27,992 nt of DNA, from IMG/VR virus record IMGVR_UViG_3300005607_000048, positions 1 through 27,992 of that record; one strand, given 5' to 3'. The position numbers were made by a program, and so were the translations under genes. This document shows positions 5,871-26,155 of this stretch, one piece after another; position 1 is the stretch's first letter, and each line of letters begins with the position of its first letter. Source of the DNA: a virus. The notes under the pieces are model-generated. The model made no database searches, was not told where the DNA came from, and saw nothing but the letters and a program-made list of their open reading frames with translations.

Positions 5871-6095
5871 ATGCTGAAGGACTTCTTACCTGGTGATCTG
5901 GTCCTGTCAGACCGCCCCGACTTCAAGGTTCCCGAGGACGAAAAGTCACGTATCGGGATGGTGTTGGGGCACATCCCACCGGGTACAATGGGAAATGGGT
6001 TCGCGGTCACCCAACTCCTCGTCTTCTGGACAGGACCCCGGCACGGGCACAAGCCCTTCACACTCGAACCCGACCACAGGTTGAAACACGCATGA
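5871..6095 (+). CDS. Small orphan upstream of the FEN nuclease
   Basis: A 74-residue protein with the pattern FLPGDLVLSDRPDFK...SRIGMVLGHIPPG...VTQLLVFWTG, again suggestive of a compact strand-rich barrel, similar in layout to the preceding product (GD-V-L/V motif). The two may be related small domains, but identity is low. ATG 5871 follows the previous stop by 3 bases and the gene overlaps the nuclease start by ATGA, so it belongs to the same operon. Confidence 0.65.
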   Translation: MLKDFLPGDLVLSDRPDFKVPEDEKSRIGMVLGHIPPGTMGNGFAVTQLLVFWTGPRHGHKPFTLEPDHRLKHA

Positions 6096-6949
6096 GCAAG
6101 ATCCTCATCATCGACGGCGCGAACTTCATGTATCGCGCTCGGGCTGGGTTCCAGCTGGGCGACTTCAACGTCGTTTACAACTTCGTCCGCAACCTCCGGT
6201 CGCTGGTCGAGCAGATGGCTCCCACTCGCGTCTACTTCACGTTGGAGGGAGCGCCCCGGCGCCAGCTGGAGAAGCTGCCCACCTACAAGGCCAACCGCAT
6301 CGGCCGTGACGATCACCAGGAGGGCAAGCGTAGCGAGGAGGACTACCGGCGCCAGAACCAGATCATCGTCCGCATCCTCGAGCACATGCTGCCCGTCACC
6401 GTGGTCCAGCACCCGGACTTCGAGGCCGATGACCTCATCTACAACCTGATCAAGCGTTCGAGCAGCGCGATCGAATGGACTGTCGTGTCGACAGACTCCG
6501 ACTTCATCCAGCTGTTGCAACAGTTCTCGAACGTCAAGCTCTACAACCCGGTCACCAAGAAGTACGTCCAGGCCCCCGACTACGAGTACGTCGTCTGGAA
6601 GGCGCTCCGCGGTGACGGCAGCGACAACATCCCCGGGATCCCGGGCATCGGCGACGTGCGTGCTACTGAGCTGGCCAACGACTATGACGAGCTGTGCCGG
6701 CTGCGTGCGAACGCAACGTTCGAGGAGCAGTTCAAGCGTAACTTCGACCTCATCCACTTCCAGGCCTGGTCCGACGAAGAGGCACTGAAGATGAGGTCGT
6801 CAGGTGCTCCCCGCAACTGGGACCTGATCAAGGAGCAGTTCGAGGACATGGCCTTCAAGAGCATGCTCAAGGAGGGGACCTGGGACAAGTTCGTCGCCAC
6901 GTTCGACCCCCTCTGGGGTCCTTCCGAGGATGCGCCGAAAACAGTGTAA
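6092..6949 (+). CDS. 5'-3' exonuclease / flap endonuclease of the FEN (PIN-like) superfamily
   Basis: A 285-residue protein with the FEN signature in order: ILIIDGANFMYRA (residues 4-16, first metal-binding Asp), YKANR in the arch region, DFEADDLIYNL (second acidic cluster), STDSDFIQLL (third), and GDGSDNIPGIPGIG (helix-3-turn-helix with the final Asp). The length matches T4 RNase H and the small 5' nuclease domains that act without a polymerase domain. Such enzymes remove RNA primers and flaps during lagging-strand synthesis and can finish base-excision repair, consistent with the glycosylases further along. The start overlaps the upstream stop (ATGA). Confidence 0.92.
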   Translation: MSKILIIDGANFMYRARAGFQLGDFNVVYNFVRNLRSLVEQMAPTRVYFTLEGAPRRQLEKLPTYKANRIGRDDHQEGKRSEEDYRRQNQIIVRILEHMLPVTVVQHPDFEADDLIYNLIKRSSSAIEWTVVSTDSDFIQLLQQFSNVKLYNPVTKKYVQAPDYEYVVWKALRGDGSDNIPGIPGIGDVRATELANDYDELCRLRANATFEEQFKRNFDLIHFQAWSDEEALKMRSSGAPRNWDLIKEQFEDMAFKSMLKEGTWDKFVATFDPLWGPSEDAPKTV

Positions 6950-6972
6950 GTCATGCTCGACTGTGGTAGACT
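6945..6972 (+). promoter_or_regulatory. Promoter, copy 2 of a duplicated element
   Basis: TGTAAG at 6945-6950, 16 bases, TAGACT at 6967-6972, ATG at 6979 after 6 bases. It begins inside the last codons of the nuclease gene. It is a near copy of 5504-5531. Confidence 0.6.
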
Positions 6973-6978
6973 GGAGGC

Positions 6979-7383
6979 ATGGCAGTCAAAAACACTCGAG
7001 TGAGCCAGGCCATCGCGAAAGCGGTCGAGCTGAACCGTACCATCAAGACGTTGCAGGCTGACCTGGAGGGCTTGAAGGACGTCATTCGGGCCGAGGGTGA
7101 AAAGTTCTCGGAGGACGGCAAGCTGGTCGAGTTCGAGTCACCGGCTGGTGTGGCGACGGTGTGCTTCTACAAGGACGGCGCATCAGTGGTCGAGGGTGCC
7201 AACCTGCGGGAGCTGAGGGAGACGCTCCCCAAAGTTACCTGGGAGGACCTCTTTGTCGAGAAGGTGGTCCTGGCCCAGGGCTTCAACGAGAAGTTTGAGC
7301 AGCTCGGGAAGCGGCAGAAGCGCATTGTCGGCGAGTACGTCGAGTTCAAGCCGAAAGCGCCGCACGTGATCCTTCCCAAGTGA
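6979..7383 (+). CDS. Orphan with N-terminal coiled coil
   Basis: A 134-residue protein. Residues 6-38 form a heptad-like helix (IAKAVELNRTIKTLQADLEGLKDVIRAEGEKF). A strand-rich middle follows (KLVEFESPAGVATVCFYKDG), then a helical part and a strand-rich end (RIVGEYVEFKPKAPHVI). The layout recalls phage accessory proteins that sit beside recombination or replication genes, but I do not recognise a family. It has its own promoter and starts leaderless at ATG 6979; GGAGG at 6973-6977 is too close to the ATG to act as a normal ribosome site. Confidence 0.75.
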   Translation: MAVKNTRVSQAIAKAVELNRTIKTLQADLEGLKDVIRAEGEKFSEDGKLVEFESPAGVATVCFYKDGASVVEGANLRELRETLPKVTWEDLFVEKVVLAQGFNEKFEQLGKRQKRIVGEYVEFKPKAPHVILPK

Positions 7384-7395
7384 CTGTCTCGATTG

Positions 7396-7423
7396 TGAAC
7401 TTCTGAACCTCGTGGCCTACCTA
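7396..7423 (+). promoter_or_regulatory. Promoter and strong ribosome site before the HExxH pair
   Basis: TGAACT at 7396-7401, 16 bases, TACCTA at 7418-7423. Unlike most promoters here the start codon (ATG 7443) is 20 bases away and carries a strong Shine-Dalgarno GGGAGG at 7431-7436. The 15-base box GGCCTA-C/G-C/T-TACCCTC (7414-7428) recurs at 8454-8468. Confidence 0.45.
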
Positions 7424-7442
7424 CCCTCGTGGGAGGTGGGAC

Positions 7443-7937
7443 ATGAAGCAACCGTGGCGGACGTTGGGCTGGTTGTGGGCCCTCCCGCTCACGTTGTTCG
7501 GTCTCATCTACACGTCGATCTTCACTATCCTCGGGTGGTACACGAACCAGGGTCGCCACGGCGACGCTCTGGTCTGGAATGTCAACCACGACCGGATGCC
7601 CAGGATCCTGCAGCGCGCCTGGCGCCACTGGAACGGGCACACTGTCGGAAACGTCGTCATCATCAATGGCACTGTTGACACTCACCGGGGTCGCATCACC
7701 CTCCGGCACGAGCAGGAACACGTTCGCCAGGGCATGGTGTTGGGCGTCTTCCTCCCGATCTTCTACACCGCAGCCTACGTCGGGTTGAAGTTCTGTGCCC
7801 ATGCCCACCCGTACTACGACAACCCGTTCGAGATCGATGCTCGCCGGGCGGCTGGACAAGTCGTCGACGTGATCGGGGCGTTGAAGCGTGCGGTGGCGGA
7901 AGGCCGGATCAAGGTGCCGCCCAGGAAGAATACGTAA
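7443..7937 (+). CDS. Membrane-associated HExxH putative metallopeptidase, first of a tandem pair
   Basis: A 164-residue protein. Residues about 8-31 (LGWLWALPLTLFGLIYTSIFTILG) are a membrane segment. HEQEH at 89-93, followed by VRQ, is the HExxH zinc site of gluzincin/zincin-type peptidases. A second hydrophobic stretch (MVLGVFLPIFYTAAYVGLKF) follows, and E130 in NPFEIDAR is a good third ligand. The adjacent gene has the same order of RHExxHxRQ, hydrophobic segment and FExxA, so the two are paralogues. They probably act at the cytoplasmic membrane, perhaps cleaving an envelope protein. Peptidase activity is inferred from the motif only. Confidence 0.7.
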   Translation: MKQPWRTLGWLWALPLTLFGLIYTSIFTILGWYTNQGRHGDALVWNVNHDRMPRILQRAWRHWNGHTVGNVVIINGTVDTHRGRITLRHEQEHVRQGMVLGVFLPIFYTAAYVGLKFCAHAHPYYDNPFEIDARRAAGQVVDVIGALKRAVAEGRIKVPPRKNT

Positions 7938-7941
7938 GGGC

Positions 7942-8451
7942 ATGGCGCCCGATTTCAATGCCCTCCAGGCCGAGGTCCTCGCAGAGTTCCCGGACTTCAA
8001 GATCGTCAACAAGGCCGACAGCTGGTTCATGAAGCTGGTCAGCCACTTCATGGTGAGTTCATTCATGGACTCATTCGTGACAACGATCTGGAACACGGTC
8101 TACGTTCCCTCGGGTTGGGCCACCTACAGCGAGGCTGAGAAGTGCTCGTTGCTCCGGCACGAGCGGGTCCACATGCGCCAGGCGCGCAAGCTGACGTTCC
8201 CGCTGTTCGCCTTCCTGTACCTGTTGGTCTTTCTGCCCATCGGCCTCGCGTACTTCCGGGCCAGGTTCGAGATGGAGGCGTACACCGAGTCGCTCCAGGC
8301 TGACAAGGACTACGGGGCAACCAACTGGAACAGCTCGGAGATGAAGGCATGGGTCGCGTCCCAGTTCACCGGTCCCTCGTACGGGTGGATGTGGCCCTTC
8401 CCGGGCACCATCGCCAAGTGGGTCGACGAAGCCGTTGCTAGCGTCCGCTGA
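7942..8451 (+). CDS. Membrane-associated HExxH putative metallopeptidase, second of the pair
   Basis: A 169-residue protein starting at ATG 7942, 4 bases after the preceding stop. HERVH at 73-77 is the zinc-binding HExxH, followed by MRQA. Residues 84-104 (TFPLFAFLYLLVFLPIGLAYF) are a membrane helix. RFEMEAYTES at about 109-118 supplies E110 or E112 as likely third ligand. The motif order matches the upstream paralogue, although overall identity is low and this copy lacks the long N-terminal membrane segment. The pair may form a heterodimer or have diverged to different substrates. Function beyond the zinc motif is unknown. Confidence 0.7.
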   Translation: MAPDFNALQAEVLAEFPDFKIVNKADSWFMKLVSHFMVSSFMDSFVTTIWNTVYVPSGWATYSEAEKCSLLRHERVHMRQARKLTFPLFAFLYLLVFLPIGLAYFRARFEMEAYTESLQADKDYGATNWNSSEMKAWVASQFTGPSYGWMWPFPGTIAKWVDEAVASVR

Positions 8452-8463
8452 GGGGCCTAGTTA
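8435..8463 (+). promoter_or_regulatory. Promoter-like element before the tagged gene at 8469
   Basis: TTGCTA at 8435-8440, 17 bases, TAGTTA at 8458-8463, 5 bases to ATG 8469. The box GGCCTAGTTACCCTC (8454-8468) differs at two positions from that at 7414-7428. Confidence 0.45.
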
Positions 8464-8468
8464 CCCTC

Positions 8469-8720
8469 ATGGCGCGCACCCCCGTTACGGAAACCCTCCT
8501 CAAGCAACTCGTCCAGGAAGCTCTGGCTCCCGCGGGCGGTACCGGCAGCGTCAAAGAGATGCTGCAGTCCCTGGTCAACGGCATCGGCGAGAAGCTGAAA
8601 GGGCAGTACCCGCCCGAGGCAGTGGACGCTGAGATGAAGGACCTGTCGACACAGATCGAGGCACTCATCCGGTCCAGCGTCGCGAAGCTGAAGTCTTCGG
8701 GCGCCAAGCCTGCAGCCTGA
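8469..8720 (+). CDS. Small helical protein with capsid-targeting-like tag
   Basis: An 83-residue protein. Residues 8-19 (ETLLKQLVQEAL) form the short amphipathic helix with a VQE site shared with the other tagged proteins here, followed by a small-residue linker (APAGGTGS). The rest is two helices (VKEMLQSLVNGIGEKLKG, VDAEMKDLSTQIEALIRSSVAKLKSS) and an Ala-rich end. No enzyme motif is present. It could be a minor virion or scaffold-core component. It starts leaderless behind its own -10 box. Confidence 0.7.
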   Translation: MARTPVTETLLKQLVQEALAPAGGTGSVKEMLQSLVNGIGEKLKGQYPPEAVDAEMKDLSTQIEALIRSSVAKLKSSGAKPAA

Positions 8721-8726
8721 GTGATC

Positions 8727-8755
8727 TGAAAAAGCTAGATGCTGTGGCCTAGCTA
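8727..8755 (+). promoter_or_regulatory. Promoter before the small gene at 8764
   Basis: TGAAAA at 8727-8732, 17 bases, TAGCTA at 8750-8755, 8 bases to ATG 8764. Here the TGA is not a stop codon of the upstream gene, so the -35 is independent evidence for the motif. Confidence 0.45.
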
Positions 8756-8763
8756 TGGGTAAC

Positions 8764-8952
8764 ATGAAGAAACATTACCCTCATGGGCCCTGCGCCCCAG
8801 CTTGGCAAGAGCGTCTTCTTAGGGAGACAGACACTGATGAGTTCTGTTATACCCAGGGTTTGCTTGACGAACGACTCGAATTCGACGATGATCGTAAGAT
8901 CGTCATGACAGTGAAGCAATTGAAAGAGTTGCTCAAACGAAGCAAACGGTGA
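8764..8952 (+). CDS. Small acidic/basic orphan
   Basis: A 62-residue protein from ATG 8764 (an ATG at 8755 in the same frame would overlap the -10 box). It begins with a His/Pro/Cys stretch (KKHYPHGPCAPAW) and ends in a helix with a basic tail (VKQLKELLKRSKR). Codon choice is more AT-rich than in the flanking genes (GAA, AAA, GAT), marking the beginning of the atypical 8.75-10.97 kb segment. It is followed by a hairpin. No family is recognised. Confidence 0.55.
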   Translation: MKKHYPHGPCAPAWQERLLRETDTDEFCYTQGLLDERLEFDDDRKIVMTVKQLKELLKRSKR

Positions 8953-8980
8953 AGCTGGCGAGTGATTAGCTTGCCAGCTT
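8952..8980. terminator. Hairpin between convergent genes
   Basis: An 11-bp stem with one G-U pair (8952-8962 with 8970-8980) and a 7-base loop, lying exactly between the stop codons of the convergent genes ending at 8952 (+) and 8986 (-). There is no T-run on the + side and only a short one on the - side, so a bidirectional terminator is likely but not certain. Confidence 0.5.
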
Positions 8981-8985
8981 CGGGT

Positions 8986-9726
8986 TCACTGAAACCAAAC
9001 GAGTGTCAATTGCCCAGACCCACCGTTGCCACCCGGGTACGTTCCTGCCCCCGAGGCACCACCGCCTCCTGCACCCGTGTTCGCTGCTGCAGACTGTCCA
9101 GCGCTGCCAGCGCCCGTTCCGGTGCCACCATTGCCGCCGTTGCCGTAGGGGCCGGCGCCACCGCCACCACCTGGGTTTTTGCCCGATTGAACGACGCCTG
9201 GGGCGCCGCCCTGGAAGACGTTGTGAAGGTTCGCGCTGCCGGACGAAGCCGTGTAGATCTGTCCCTGACCGAGACCACCATAACCCGGACCCGCAACCGC
9301 GACAAGGCCCGTGATTGCATCACTTGCACCCGCGGCGCCGTTATGTCCGCCTCCATCGCCACCGTCACCACCCGCCGCACCGATGAACGACGAGAGAAGG
9401 GTGCTGCTACTGATAGAGAACGTTGTGGAGCCACCCGCACCACCGATCTCTTGACCACCCATCGAAGGAGAGTCAGTCGGAGCGATGCCACCTGCGCCGA
9501 TACCAATCCAGTATGTGGTACCAGACGTGACGCTGACGATAGCATCCATCAGGATGGAACCGCCGCCTCCACCTGCGCCGCCCCCAGCTCCTGCTCCACC
9601 TCCACCGCAACCCTCAAGGAATACAGGACCGGTGATCGGAGCAACCCAAGCTTGACTTCCCGTTGCGACAAGCGTCTGCATGCCAATGGACGCCGACGTG
9701 AATGAAATGCTCGTAATGACTGTCAT
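8986..9726 (-). CDS. Glycine-rich tail adhesin / receptor-binding protein
   Basis: A 246-residue protein on the - strand. The first 45 residues are strand-rich (SISFTSASIGMQTLVATGSQAWVAP), then the chain becomes very glycine-rich, with repeated GGGG, GAGG and GGNGG motifs, and closes with GQLTLVWFQ. This is the layout of glycine-rich phage adhesins, such as those at T4-type tail-fibre tips, in which polyglycine-II helices pack side by side and present loops for receptor binding. The start ATG at 9726 has GGGAG 8 bases upstream. It is one of only three genes on this strand and is divergently paired with the methyltransferase, 28 bases away. Host-range function is inferred from composition. Confidence 0.72.
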   Translation of the reverse strand: MTVITSISFTSASIGMQTLVATGSQAWVAPITGPVFLEGCGGGGAGAGGGAGGGGGSILMDAIVSVTSGTTYWIGIGAGGIAPTDSPSMGGQEIGGAGGSTTFSISSSTLLSSFIGAAGGDGGDGGGHNGAAGASDAITGLVAVAGPGYGGLGQGQIYTASSGSANLHNVFQGGAPGVVQSGKNPGGGGGAGPYGNGGNGGTGTGAGSAGQSAAANTGAGGGGASGAGTYPGGNGGSGQLTLVWFQ

Positions 9727-9754: not shown

Positions 9755-10369
9755 ATGGGATCAAGCAAATACGCAGTGATTGACGAAATTTTGGGGACTG
9801 GCACAGACTTGTCACAAGTCTGTTGCGTCGAGATCGGATCAGAACGAGGTGAGGGCAGCACTGCCTGGCTTCACACTTGGTGCGTTCAACACGGCATGGA
9901 GTTTTGGACTTGTGACTTCGATCCTGCGATCGCTGATAACGCACGTACTTTGACGCCCAACGTCATATGTGCAAAGGGTGAGGAGTGGCTCACCAAATCA
10001 CCTCCCCAGAAGCCCGTCGCTTTCGCCTACCTCGACAACTTCGACTGGATCTTTCCCAAGAACGTCAGCAAGCCCTGGCGCCTCCAGACGGGTCGTTACC
10101 TCGAGATCGATGGCACTGTCATGAACAACGTTAATTCGCAAGCAACTCATTTCGCTCAAGCCAACGCACTGCTCCCGTTGTTCGCACCCCATGCTTTCGT
10201 CTTGTTCGATGACACTTGGCGTTATGATACGGGCGAGTACGACGGCAAGGGCGGGACCGCGGTACCTTTTTTGCTTGCTAATGGGTTTTCAATCATTAGC
10301 GAGAAGGTCACACCCGAAATTGGCACTCGTGACATCTTTGACGGGTGGGTGCTGCTCCGACGGGGGTAA
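9755..10369 (+). CDS. Class I SAM-dependent methyltransferase-like protein
   Basis: A 204-residue protein. VCCVEIGSERGEGSTAWLH at about residues 22-40 is motif I (ExGxxxGxS) of a Rossmann methyltransferase. FWTCDFDPAIADNARTL gives the acidic residue that would bind the SAM ribose. VAFAYLDNFDWI and FVLFDDTW match later strands with Asp pairs typical of the Methyltransf_24 family. The substrate is unknown; in phages such enzymes modify sugars, small molecules or DNA. It stands alone between two minus-strand genes in an AT-richer segment. The 3' end overlaps the end of the homing endonuclease gene by about 80 bases in convergent orientation. Confidence 0.65.
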   Translation: MGSSKYAVIDEILGTGTDLSQVCCVEIGSERGEGSTAWLHTWCVQHGMEFWTCDFDPAIADNARTLTPNVICAKGEEWLTKSPPQKPVAFAYLDNFDWIFPKNVSKPWRLQTGRYLEIDGTVMNNVNSQATHFAQANALLPLFAPHAFVLFDDTWRYDTGEYDGKGGTAVPFLLANGFSIISEKVTPEIGTRDIFDGWVLLRRG

Positions 10370-10969
10370 TCGTGGACAACGGTAACGCTTATGTCCTGTT
10401 TCATGACACAACGAACAACGTTGCGACTTGCCACGTAATGTCTGACGACGTTTGATTTTCGTCGCTTCAGACTGTTTGAGACCGGTCAAACTCTTTGCGA
10501 TCTTTGCACGCCAAGCTTCTGGTTTGGGTGACGTTGCGGCCGAATGAGGTGGGTGTCCAAGCAACGTCTTCGAAATCTTGGCTCTCACTTCAGCACGTTT
10601 AGCGGGGTTGACATCGCCCACCTTGCCCAACGTGCAACCATACCCGCCGCTGCCACCCAATGTGAAGTTGCAGCCAATGTCGTTCGGATCATCGTGCGAG
10701 TGATTGGTTGAAAACGTCTTCTCACCTGCGATTGTTTTGACTTCCCACTCATTGGAAGCATCAAAACTAACGGGACCTACACAAACTTCGATCCGAACAC
10801 CGTAGCGTTCGACGATTGCTTTGTGTTTGTGGTTTCGGTTCTTCAGGTCAGATGCTCGTCGTAAGAGCCCACGACCAACGTAAAAGCAACGAGGGGTTTC
10901 CTCTAGCGTCCAGTGCTTGTACCCGTAGAACCGCTCTGGTGTCGGCTGCACGACCATACTTAGTGGCAT
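10289..10969 (-). CDS. GIY-YIG homing endonuclease with NUMOD-like and zinc-knuckle C-terminus
   Basis: A 226-residue protein on the - strand (a start at 10957 is also possible). Residues 15-34 (YGYKHWTLEETPRCFYVGRG) correspond to the GIY-YIG core, with CFYVG standing for the YIG half. R38 and the Glu of NEWEVKTIA are the likely catalytic Arg and Glu. The middle carries two copies of a short motif (AKISKTLLGHPP and AKIAKSLTGLKQS) like the NUMOD3 DNA-binding modules. CSLCHETGHKRYRC is a CCHC zinc knuckle. These features define phage homing endonucleases, which cut phage DNA to spread themselves. The gene lies antisense between the methyltransferase and the endolysin, and its start overlaps the endolysin start codon. 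Confidence 0.82.
   Translation of the reverse strand: MPLSMVVQPTPERFYGYKHWTLEETPRCFYVGRGLLRRASDLKNRNHKHKAIVERYGVRIEVCVGPVSFDASNEWEVKTIAGEKTFSTNHSHDDPNDIGCNFTLGGSGGYGCTLGKVGDVNPAKRAEVRAKISKTLLGHPPHSAATSPKPEAWRAKIAKSLTGLKQSEATKIKRRQTLRGKSQRCSLCHETGHKRYRCPRLPPSEQHPPVKDVTSANFGCDLLAND
10957..10962 (+). promoter_or_regulatory. -10-like box TACTTA before the endolysin
   Basis: TACTTA ends 5 bases before ATG 10968, in the same arrangement as at 3751. No -35 is visible at 16-18 bases. The box lies inside the first codons of the opposing homing endonuclease gene. Confidence 0.4.
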
Positions 10970-12227
10970 GAAGACGTCTCAGAATGGACTTAACTTCATC
11001 GCACGCGAAGAGGGGGAGGTCGACCATGTCTACAAAGACATCGCCGGCATTCCCACAATCGGGATCGGCCATGTGGTCAGGCCAGGTGAGTCCTTCCCGA
11101 ACGGCATCACCCACGATCAGGCTCTTCAGATCCTCGCCGGGGACGTCGGCGTCGCTGAGGGTGCTGTCAACACAGACATCACCTACTCCGGCTTGACGCA
11201 GAACATGTTCGATGCGTTGGTGTCGTTCACCTTCAACTGCGGCACTGGCTCGCTCAAGGTCTCATCGATCCGGTCCAAGCTCAATGCTGGCGACGTGCCC
11301 GGTGCTGCAGACGCATTCCTCTTGTGGTGCAAGGCCACGGTCAACGGCGTGTTGACGACCGACAAGGGACTCTACAACCGCCGGATGCGGGAGCGCCAGC
11401 TGTTCCTGACGCCCGACGGTCAGCCGCTGGTGAAGCCCGCTCCCGTCGATCCTCCGGCTCCGCCCGCACCGCCGGTCGAGCACCCGGCTCCCGACCATGC
11501 CAACGTGCCCATCAACCAGCAGCCGCTGGTCCCGAACGAGCAGCCCGCTGACCGCATCATCAGGCTGGTGAAGTCGCACGTGGGGTGCAGCCTCAGCGAA
11601 CGACGTGCGGAGCTGGGCAAGCTGGTGGCACGCGGGGTCGATAGCCCCGAACAGGTCGTCACCATCTCGACCAACTGCGCGACGACCGCTCTCGGCATCA
11701 TGGCTGAAGCGGGCGTCCGCGATGCGATCCTGAACAAGCCCTACCAGTCGGGCATGGCAGTGTCGTGGGTCCGGCAGATCGGCATCAACACGGGTGCCCT
11801 CGTCAAGTTCGACGGCAAGACGATGCCGAAGCCCGGTTCGCTGCTGCACTACAACACGCCCGGGACGAACAATGACCACGTTGAGTGGCTGTTGGGCCCG
11901 ATCGATGCCCAGGGCAACGCTGACCACGGCGGCGGCGGTCGCTCCAACAACGCGATCACCGAGGGCACCGGCAACGTCATGTCGTCCTGGGGCCGACCAT
12001 TGGTCGAGTGGTGGGACCCCGACAAGCTCGGCATCCCGGTCCTGGTGCAGGACCAGCCGGCTCCCGTGGCCCCTCCGCCGCCCCCAGACCCTCCCGCACC
12101 AGTCCCGACACCGGTACCCCCTCCGGCCCCGGTGACGCCTCCCGTGCAGCCCTCCAAGTCAGCCCTGCAGGCCATCGTGGATGCCATCAGCTGGCTGGTC
12201 AAAGCGCTCCTGAAACCGAGGACCTGA
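10968..12227 (+). CDS. Two-domain endolysin: GH24 muramidase plus NlpC/P60- or CHAP-like domain
   Basis: A 419-residue protein. Residues 1-145 form a T4-type lysozyme: E15, D24 and T30 keep the exact 9- and 6-residue spacing of the T4 catalytic triad (context AREEGEVDHVYKDIAGIPTIGIGH is split across residues 12-35). It cleaves the MurNAc-GlcNAc bond. A Pro-rich linker covers about 150-190. A second domain at about 195-350 has Cys237 in STNCATTALGI and His304 in NDHVEWLL, as expected for a papain-like peptidase/amidase of NlpC/P60 or CHAP type. A second Pro-rich linker leads to a C-terminal amphipathic helix (IVDAISWLVKALLKP), perhaps for membrane or wall contact. There is no signal peptide, so a holin or virion delivery would be needed. 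The C-terminal assignments are less sure than the lysozyme. Confidence 0.88.
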   Translation: MKTSQNGLNFIAREEGEVDHVYKDIAGIPTIGIGHVVRPGESFPNGITHDQALQILAGDVGVAEGAVNTDITYSGLTQNMFDALVSFTFNCGTGSLKVSSIRSKLNAGDVPGAADAFLLWCKATVNGVLTTDKGLYNRRMRERQLFLTPDGQPLVKPAPVDPPAPPAPPVEHPAPDHANVPINQQPLVPNEQPADRIIRLVKSHVGCSLSERRAELGKLVARGVDSPEQVVTISTNCATTALGIMAEAGVRDAILNKPYQSGMAVSWVRQIGINTGALVKFDGKTMPKPGSLLHYNTPGTNNDHVEWLLGPIDAQGNADHGGGGRSNNAITEGTGNVMSSWGRPLVEWWDPDKLGIPVLVQDQPAPVAPPPPPDPPAPVPTPVPPPAPVTPPVQPSKSALQAIVDAISWLVKALLKPRT

Positions 12228-21206: not shown

Positions 21207-21538
21207 AGCAGTGCGCCGACATCCGCTCCGGGAAGAGCAAGATCAGCGGGCGAGGCTTGTTCGCCCGTGTCATGCTGAGGCCCGGCATCCCATTCAACGA
21301 TGACCCGGCACGGAAGCACGGCTTCAACCACTCGTGCCAGCCCAACTGCATCATCGTCAGGAACGACAAGGGCGGTGTCTGGTTCGTCATCCCGCTGCGG
21401 ATCATCCTGCCGGGCGAGGAGCTGACGCTCGACTATCGCAACGGGCACAAGCCCCGCAAACATGGGAGGTGGCTGATGTCACGTCCACCGCGCGACTGCC
21501 GGCCGTGTCGCTGTCCGTCGTGCATGGAGAAGCGATGA
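21203..21538 (+). CDS. Compact SET-domain protein (putative protein-lysine methyltransferase)
   Basis: A 111-residue protein starting at GTG 21203, with GAGAGGG upstream. It has the SET motifs in order: SGRGLFA at 15-21 (SAM-binding GxG), NHSCQPNC at 42-49 (the NHSCxPN pseudoknot motif) and GEELTLDY at 71-78. The C-terminal Cys cluster C99/C102/C104/C107 occupies the place of a post-SET zinc site. It is somewhat shorter than cellular SET domains because the insert between the first two motifs is only about 20 residues. SET enzymes methylate lysines of histones, ribosomal or other proteins. A phage copy could modify a host protein or a virion protein. It is cotranslated with the downstream ADP-ribosylglycohydrolase. 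Confidence 0.85.
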   Translation: MKQCADIRSGKSKISGRGLFARVMLRPGIPFNDDPARKHGFNHSCQPNCIIVRNDKGGVWFVIPLRIILPGEELTLDYRNGHKPRKHGRWLMSRPPRDCRPCRCPSCMEKR

Positions 21539-22446
21539 AACACCGTAACGACAACATGCTGCTTCGCATCGCACAGGGCGATGCCTACGCTGCGGCGATC
21601 GAGTACGTCAAGCCCAAGGAGCAACCGGAGCTCTACGAGGGCATCCGCAGGTTCGAACGGTACCTGCAGCACCCGACCCACACCAAGCTCCGGCCGGGCA
21701 TGTACACCGACGACACCCAGATGTCGATCGCGCTGACTGAGCTCCTGCTGGCCAAGGGCCGGGCAGCGAAGCACGAGGACTTCGTCGAGGCGTGGTTCCA
21801 TGCTTTCAAGCGGGACCCCCGCGACGGGTACAGCCGCAACTTCCAGTCGATCCTCGAGTCGGTCAAGACCAGCGACGAGCTCCGGCTGACGCTCAGGCCC
21901 GACTCGACCAAGAACGGGGCGGCGATGCGGAGCGTGCCCCTCGGCGTCATCCCCGACCCCGAGTGGGTCAAGACGATGGCGATGCGCCAAGCAGGCACCA
22001 CCCACGCAACCTACGAGGGTGTGACGTCGGCAGTGGCAGTCGCCCTGATGTCGCACTATGCCCTCTACGACCGTCGAGACTTCTCCAGCATGCCCAGCTG
22101 GTTGGCAAACCAGATGCCGGTCTTTGAGCGTTTCCGTGAGCCCTGGGTGGGCCCGGTCACTGGCAAAGCCCAAGGCTCGCCCTATGACGTGGGCATGAAC
22201 ACTGCGTGGGCAGTGCATACCTTGCTGACGACCCAGACGAGCCTGATGGGCATCATGCGACAGGTCATCGACTGGGGCGGGGACACCGACAGCGTCGCCG
22301 CCATCGCATGGGGGATTGCATCGGCTCGTTTCCACGACGAGCTTCCAGAGTTCCTCGAGCGAGACCTCGAGGCGCAAGGCAACCTGAAGTACGGACCCGA
22401 GTTCCTCAAAGAGCTCGGCAAACGTTTGATGGAGACACCGATATGA
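21535..22446 (+). CDS. ADP-ribosylglycohydrolase (DraG/ARH family)
   Basis: A 303-residue protein with the family signatures. GMYTDDTQMSIAL at about residue 59 supplies the metal-binding TDDT cluster. GTTHATYEG matches the THxxxxG segment. WGGDTDSVAAIAWGI near residue 245 is the second Asp-rich metal site. The length is standard. The enzyme removes ADP-ribose from proteins (DraG from nitrogenase reductase; others from Arg, Ser or DNA adducts) using two Mg/Mn ions. In a phage it may undo ADP-ribosylation imposed by host defence toxins or reverse that made by a phage enzyme; no ART is seen here. It overlaps its neighbours by ATGA on both sides. Confidence 0.9.
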   Translation: MKHRNDNMLLRIAQGDAYAAAIEYVKPKEQPELYEGIRRFERYLQHPTHTKLRPGMYTDDTQMSIALTELLLAKGRAAKHEDFVEAWFHAFKRDPRDGYSRNFQSILESVKTSDELRLTLRPDSTKNGAAMRSVPLGVIPDPEWVKTMAMRQAGTTHATYEGVTSAVAVALMSHYALYDRRDFSSMPSWLANQMPVFERFREPWVGPVTGKAQGSPYDVGMNTAWAVHTLLTTQTSLMGIMRQVIDWGGDTDSVAAIAWGIASARFHDELPEFLERDLEAQGNLKYGPEFLKELGKRLMETPI

Positions 22447-26126: not shown

Positions 26127-26155
26127 TGTTGACATGAGCTCCGGCGGCCTACTTA
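26127..26155 (+). promoter_or_regulatory. Promoter-like element before the gene at 26164
   Basis: TGTTGA at 26127-26132, 17 bases, TACTTA at 26150-26155, 8 bases to ATG 26164. GTTGACATG occurs twice, at 26128 and 26158. The box supports 26164 over the in-frame ATG at 26134. Confidence 0.4.

Follow-up and report, generated by a model that had tools for sequence, protein, structure and literature searches.

In peptidases of the M48 family (HtpX, Ste24, BepA), an HExxH motif is followed first by a hydrophobic part of the protein and then by a glutamate. The same three elements, set in a membrane zincin, are found in M56 proteins such as BlaR1; FtsH, which is ATP-dependent, belongs to a family other than that of the two proteins described below. 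The metallopeptidase of VgrG2b, an HEXXH protein with E983 as its third ligand, is classed as a gluzincin, and members of its family are annotated as DUF4157 and include unfused cargo proteins (PMC6899460). Zinc proteases of other families have already been reported from phages: two papers describe FtsH as a membrane zinc metalloprotease encoded by jumbo phage MIJ3 (PMC6892783) and Mtz as a secreted metzincin of phage origin in Listeria, which together with its partner is described as an accessory lysis protein (PMC8235301). MIJ3 FtsH is the closest precedent that we met, a membrane zinc metalloprotease in a large phage (PMC6892783). Another report (PMC6207643) was set aside as a phage precedent because its metalloprotease is the host's and not a phage protein.

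Two adjacent viral genes, here called A and B, probably encode minimal gluzincin-type metallopeptidases that are attached to the membrane, belong to two families of ancient divergence and act on membrane-proximal proteins. They lie on the + strand at positions 7443-8451 of the IMG/VR virus record IMGVR_UViG_3300005607_000048, the whole stretch of which (27,992 nt) was analyzed and is called the window. Gene A (7443..7937; ATG start, TAA stop, 164 aa) is preceded by a GGAGG resembling a ribosome-binding site (7432..7436, +, read from the sequence), and gene B (7942..8451; ATG start, TGA stop, 169 aa) follows after a gap of 4 nt; an alternative GTG start of the B reading frame, at 7888, lies within A. 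Each open reading frame encodes a predicted membrane-associated zincin-like protein. A promoter and terminator scan of 6900-9000 gave one promoter-like site, at 8864, and no terminator. The string GGCCTANNTA occurs exactly at 7414, 8454 and 8746, just upstream of the genes at 7443, 8469 and 8755, and also at 26146, 12 bases within an ORF called at 26134; with one mismatch allowed there are 8 matches against 4.3 expected, a number reached in 8 of 100 shuffles, so that the whole is not significant. Elsewhere in the window, 8 of 30 hand-picked genes have a −10-like hexamer, TANNNT, with its end 5-7 nt ahead of the start codon (0.43 expected, five positions; starts at 670, 2263, 2759, 5538, 6979, 9755, 14611 and 16773), and seven of these eight genes lack a Shine-Dalgarno-like 4-mer, which suggests leaderless transcripts. 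At the same 5-7 nt, the hexamer was counted in 12 of 113 genes of L043-L048 (expected 1.6; L-numbers label the loci of relatives) and in 9/55 (1.4), 6/120 (2.0), 46/177 (8.2) and 29/316 (12.6) genes of the other four groups of relatives.

An earlier note on this DNA had described the two genes as tandem, related HExxH proteins in a phage context, sharing RHExxHxRQ, a hydrophobic segment behind it and a downstream FExxA glutamate, and each of these elements was found again. The signature reads RHEQEHVRQ in A (H89, E90 and H93; HExxH at 7707..7721) and RHERVHMRQ in B (H73, E74 and H77; 8158..8172), all on the + strand like the features that follow. In A, a hydrophobic run at residues 97-115 (7731..7787; Kyte-Doolittle mean 1.76) precedes NPFEIDA, in which E130 (7830..7832, the last residue of YYDNPFE) is the presumed third zinc ligand; in B, a run at residues 84-102 (8191..8247; mean 2.25), situated between the predicted ligand helices, precedes FEMEA, in which E110 (8269..8271) is presumed to have the same role. 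The segment between the ligands is single in both window proteins, with no hairpin, and the distal glutamate follows HExxH at a spacing of 41 residues in A and 37 in B. This run is the one strong hydrophobic segment of B; A has a second, at residues 13-31 (7479..7535; mean 1.75). The succession of HExxH, hydrophobic stretch and glutamate in both proteins supports the membrane-linked zincin layout that had been proposed for them.

HExxH by itself is weak evidence, being present in 5 of the 263 window frames that run from stop to stop over 60 aa or more, three of the five antisense, and it might have arisen by chance in unrelated small membrane proteins. We regard this as very improbable, because the ligand residues are conserved in relatives of both A and B, with a conserved and spaced distal glutamate, and because the selection, fold and profile results presented below point the same way. 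Invariant in all 16 aligned phage A proteins are H89, E90, H93, Q96, YYDN, F129 and E130; this alignment stands for 17 A loci and the window, the L042 copy being the same as that of the window and L058 the same as L057. H73, E74, H77, R79, Q80 and E110 are invariant in 29 of 29 aligned B proteins, and P56, H73, E74, H77, R106, E110, Y114, Y147 and W151 in all 17 members of a divergent B set, which overlaps the 29-protein set by 5 rows and includes one gene from a bacterial genome. B also has a C-terminal motif of its own, F-T/V-x-x-x-Y-x-W-M-W-P-F. The distance from the first histidine to the distal glutamate is +41/42 in A and +34 to +71, mostly +37, in B; it is 34-71 in the divergent set, where two or three TM-like windows lie between the ligands in 6 of 17 proteins. 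The hydrophobic stretch between the ligands falls below the cut-off in 3/16 A, 2/29 B and 1/17 divergent B proteins, so that attachment may be peripheral.

The peptide patterns of the IMG/VR scan held parts of these motifs (HERVHMR and the C-terminal pattern for B, L-HEQ-HV and YYDNPF for A). HExxH is kept in all 23 complete B frames that were found without the HERVHMR pattern and in all 5 A frames without the HEQ pattern, and the single A frame without YYDNPF keeps the distal glutamate. The distal glutamate of B was absent from the patterns of the 54-locus scan and is therefore independent of the search there. Among 53 distinct B frames extracted, HExxH is lacking only from the second piece of a gene split over two frames. 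At L101 and L102 (about 9953-10476) the HExxH part and the C-terminal part of B are encoded in different frames that overlap, and the gene is thus either broken or affected by a sequencing error. Selection on both genes is purifying: dN/dS is 0.15-0.22 for A (5 computable of 6 window pairs) and 0.20-0.44 for B (3 computable of 6), with 0.07 for the pair L007/L010, dS being saturated against A of L048 and against B of L022, L007 and L010.

Beyond viruses, the A family is represented at 19 bacterial loci, in Planctomycetes lineages, Methylophilus, Thermochlorobacteriaceae (Chlorobi) and Bacteroidetes (one scan). All 18 aligned bacterial members keep both histidines and the distal glutamate; L125, near-identical to L124, was left out of this alignment, and YYDNPFE was a search pattern, so that the glutamate is not independent evidence. 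The motif glutamate is replaced by Q or D at 4 of the 19 loci (L119, L124, L125 and L130, two of them near-identical), and these proteins, with HD or HQ and the other ligands kept, are possible pseudo-peptidases. Inactive homologues are a known theme among metallopeptidases (PMC11266112), and A and B might likewise be metal-binding membrane scaffolds that have lost the ability to cut. For the phage proteins this is improbable, since the motif glutamate is present in all 16 A and in all 29 + 17 aligned B sequences. A profile of this family matched genomes in three phyla (6 of 200, 8 of 99 and 15 of 99 at E up to 1e-4), each count taking in the genome of origin. Genes like B are scarcer: the divergent B profile, run against 149 genomes of one phylum, matched three places at E up to 1e-4, one a clear B-like gene and two weak matches in ORFs of about 1000 aa; the gene beside one of the latter is presumably BlaI-type repressor-like, the M56 arrangement. 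In Methylophilus (L117, L118, L122, L126, L128, L129 and L131), the A relative and a lipoprotein-like gene point toward each other, and we take the latter to be bamD-like and to be followed by an rluD-like gene. At L156 (469-1881), a 470-aa ORF that resembles a polymorphic toxin consists of a long low-complexity part with an A-like domain at its C-terminal end.

Direct similarity between A and B is small (BLASTP, 20 of 60 residues identical, E 4e-4), in agreement with the earlier description of their sequences as diverged outside the motif. Profile-profile comparison of B with A and its bacterial relatives scored 56.6, and 63.5 with extended sets. For these two comparisons, the best of 30 column shuffles reached 19.1 and 16.0, and the reversed profiles 21.1 and 19.1. 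When nine columns around HExxHxxQ were masked, the scores dropped to 24.3 and 29.6, compared with at most 21.1 in the unmasked controls; the relation is thus real but based largely on the motif region. Judged from these profiles, A and B are two distantly homologous families.

AlphaFold2 models were confident, with a pLDDT of 90.2 and pTM of 0.82 for A and of 91.9 and 0.87 for B. In the model of B, strands 20-23, 47-49 and 52-55 precede helix 64-84, which bears HExxH, and E110 belongs to helix 100-123; in that of A, strands 33-39, 42-47, 65-68 and 71-74 precede helix 81-116, which has HExxH in its first third, and E130 belongs to helix 128-136. The metal site of each protein is inferred. Structural searches with VIA-align placed zincins in the first 12 of the best 50 rows for B and the first 39 of the best 50 for A, several rows in each case repeating one protein and some entries being proteins that we take to be zincins. 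The top rows for B were the VgrG2b effector (Z 6.1), BlaR1 (5.5), ArdC (5.0) and an M48-type peptidase and abylysin (4.9); those for A were VgrG2b (4.8), IrrE and PprI (4.7) and BepA (4.5). The earlier note had made a zincin fold, with its histidines together, the structural prediction of its proposal, and this held in part. The two histidines and the motif glutamate share one helix and the distal glutamate sits on the next in both models, and zincins lead both lists, but the fold matches have low Z scores (at most 6.1 for B and 4.8 for A, a range the tool terms middling) and Foldseek gave nothing with E < 1 against the PDB for either model. Against BFVD, Foldseek with model B returned nothing below E 0.48.

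Searches of the PDB by sequence returned no significant relative. The divergent B set had Ste24p as its best row (E 0.074), and the extended A set was matched best by a gp41 construct, which is unrelated (E 0.40), and by BepA (E 0.42). No solved structure was matched by alignments A1 and A3 (the 16-protein A set) or by one bacterial relative, and A4, A5, A6 and another bacterial relative gave non-significant rows only. Because the A and B profiles had no sequence match to the VgrG2b structure, the likeness to VgrG2b is structural, without sequence support. As regards assignment to the gluzincins, HExxH and glutamate occur together in 16/16 phage A and in 29/29 and 17/17 B proteins, and the distal glutamate is helical in both models.

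Neither protein passed a curated family cut-off in the library searches. Peptidase_M56 (PF05569) scored 17.7 bits for B against a cut-off of 31, did not match A, and was found below threshold in 11 of 29 B proteins (best 4.8e-5); PhageMetallopep was sub-threshold in 2 of 29. eCIS_core/DUF4157 reached 13.3 bits for A against a cut-off of 22 and was weak in 7 of 16 A proteins, with no match to B. No M48 match was seen in Pfam or NCBIfam for the window proteins or in Pfam for the 16 A and 29 B proteins. Because the library cut-offs were tested and not reached, we do not file A and B as members of M48, M56 or DUF4157. Three PHROGs, with best E values of about 1e-5 to 1e-3, matched more widely: phrog_15610, whose name 'protease' is an annotation only (23/29 B, 4/16 A), and phrog_37302 (15/16 A, 7/29 B) and phrog_13834 (25/29 B), for which no function is given. 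Peptide deformylase, also an HExxH enzyme, was discarded as a candidate, no PDF model in Pfam, PHROGs or NCBIfam matching A or B.

B is nevertheless like M56/BlaR1 in its order of elements, and BlaR1, the second row for the B model, superposes with an rmsd of 4.3 over 111 residues. In contrast to M56/BlaR1, B has no sensor domain, is only about 170 aa long, scores below the Pfam cut-off and has its own C-terminal motif. No BlaI-type repressor was recognized, by eye or with PHROGs, among the 20 window ORFs scanned. M48 peptidases have the same order as A and B, M48-type structures are among the better rows for both models, and 6 of the 17 divergent B proteins have two or three TM-like windows in the hydrophobic part; unlike M48, A and B are single domains with no library match and no significant sequence match. 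VgrG2b is the first structural row for both models, whereas A and B stand alone, have no spike fusion (neighbors were judged by eye and with PHROGs) and possess hydrophobic segments. Mtz is similarly an HEXXH protease of phage origin, but it is secreted and has an HEXXHXXGXXH/D motif with a Met-turn (PMC8235301), a motif that A and B do not have.

B was found at 54 IMG/VR loci and A at 17 viral loci. The B contigs are at least 100 kb long in 32 of 54 cases and at least 200 kb in 15; because long contigs favor any gene, these counts show presence in large phages rather than the strength of an association. Both genes, 100% identical to those of the window, are present in an 11,650-base contig that is probably from the same virus population, and both occur also in 3300027867_000061 and 3300005529_000001 (369 kb), again with a gap of 4 nt in each. 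When 11 A-bearing records were searched with the divergent B profile, a separate B was found only in those last two; four further matches fall on the A genes, and the other five records gave no match. The reverse search, of 8 B-bearing records with the A profile, gave no separate A, three matches overlapping the B genes and five records having none. All these records may be fragments. Among phage records, A had four weak matches at E up to 1, the best being Thermus phage phiLo (E 1e-4, 43% of the query), B had three (best E 0.1), and two divergent relatives had none at E up to 0.01. A match to phrog_2, which we take to be the terminase large subunit, says little on the phage nature of the relatives, because it was obtained with 8 of 14 virus records, not including the window, and also with 11 of 14 control genomes. 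The earlier view that such paired membrane peptidases are not a standard phage component is not supported in that form: the pair is rare (the window and two other phages), but B alone, at 54 viral loci, is a recurrent accessory gene, and zinc proteases have a precedent in phages in the FtsH of MIJ3 (PMC6892783).

The genes occupy a recognizable slot. It is bordered on the left by a 5′-3′ exonuclease-like gene (6092..6949, +; phrog_107 exonuclease, E 4.2e-33), whose cluster is also found beside A or B in other phages, and on the right by an endolysin gene (10968..12227, +; phrog_7 endolysin, E 3.5e-47; Phage_lysozyme PF00959, E 1.3e-30). The window order is exonuclease, a 134-aa gene, A, B, small genes, endolysin, a nudix gene (12705) and gene 13266, which is UDP-sugar pyrophosphorylase-like by eye and has no PHROG match. 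This block recurs with A and B (L044, L045), with A (L043, L046, L049, L050) or with B (L066, L074, L075), and the use of one slot for either gene suggests related roles. In a second lineage, B comes after large genes judged by eye to be tail genes, and its neighbors are on one side a short protein that has a TM-like segment and a charged tail and on the other a protein with a signal-like start; in a third, the gene after B encodes a trypsin-like protein (L100 matches phrog_9683 protease at E 2.9e-20). Neighborhoods were viewed for 71 loci except L105, whose gene runs to the contig end, and the gene calls around relatives are greedy longest ORFs, many of the short ones probably false. Directly before the window endolysin, a minus-strand gene (10289-10969) has a weak homing endonuclease PHROG match (E 5.9e-4), and the gene at 18926-19966 matches phrog_200 'lipoprotein' (E 4.2e-24) and is SPFH/prohibitin-like by eye.

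This setting raises the question of whether A and B have an accessory part in lysis, with proteins of the envelope as their targets while the endolysin is at work. A gene of the window-endolysin cluster lies at most five genes downstream in all six contigs L043-L048, as in the window, although these are the nearest A relatives after the window copy and probably form one clade. Two of the three short TM-like neighbors of B in the second lineage match Rz-like spanin PHROGs weakly (best E 0.0023), while the third, and both signal-start neighbors tested, matched no spanin, the latter two matching nothing in PHROGs. Of 63 same-strand neighbors of B, 18 contain a TM- or signal-like window, compared with 81 of 518 other genes (Fisher p 0.011, ignoring relatedness), some of these matches clearly not being membrane proteins; the comparison covered L062-L112 minus the near copies L075, L090 and L102 and minus L105, with neighbors of at least 80 aa within 300 nt. 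The phage-origin metzincin of Listeria and its partner offer a precedent (PMC8235301). However, the exonuclease, nudix and sugar-enzyme neighbors are not lysis genes, many B loci have no recognizable lysis gene, and nothing ties A or B to peptidoglycan, so that we consider a lysis role rather doubtful. Identity with an endolysin was rejected, just one of the 16 A proteins matching an 'endolysin' PHROG (E 0.07).

For the minimal membrane-attached metallopeptidases that we favor, we infer zinc binding, proteolysis, topology, timing and substrate as follows. The two histidines of HExxH and the distal glutamate (E130 in A, E110 in B) would hold one zinc ion, and the motif glutamate would activate a water molecule for cutting of the peptide bond. 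Between HExxH and the third ligand, the hydrophobic stretch would serve to dock the core of the enzyme in the inner membrane of the host or on its surface, a plan that would be that of HtpX/Ste24 (M48) and BlaR1 (M56), and the N-terminal hydrophobic segment of A may add to the docking. Basic residues flank the hydrophobic stretch of B on both sides, and the active site would therefore face the cytosol. Made from adjacent genes, the pair would act on membrane-proximal proteins of the host or the phage.

One set of candidate targets is host inner-membrane proteins such as receptors and stress or defense sensors, which the pair might degrade in host takeover or counter-defense. This suggestion is tentative, and the substrates proposed in the earlier note (an envelope receptor, an anti-phage membrane protein or a phage lipoprotein) are likewise conjectural. 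The layout resembles that of HtpX and BlaR1, 32 of the 54 B contigs reach 100 kb or more, a size at which accessory genes abound, the window contains an ADP-ribosylglycohydrolase-like gene (21334-22446; phrog_6572, E 1.1e-19), and jumbo phage MIJ3 encodes the membrane protease FtsH (PMC6892783). On the other hand, long contigs hold more of any gene, and searches with defense models gave no meaningful match (B matched BrxA at E 0.011, one relative had two matches at E 0.025-0.026, and the remaining 4 proteins scanned had none).

The membrane zincin is a known kind of protein; what is new here is a pair of small families for which the libraries that were run contain no curated model, with B recurrent in large phages. 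A literature search, incomplete and with most subscription journals outside it, found no published description of either family. A single biochemical test would bear on both, since the families are compact, B is recurrent in large phages and bacteria have relatives of A that no library model matches. It is conceivable, if rather unlikely as a whole, that large phages carry a minimal inner-membrane zinc protease system, in which paralogous HtpX/BlaR1-like peptidases of ~165 aa, present singly or paired in one fixed slot close to the lysis region, reshape the membrane proteins of the host or set the timing of lysis. If A and B are working proteases, large phages would own a peptidase of the HtpX/BlaR1 type in small and portable form, with which host inner-membrane proteins could be processed or removed.
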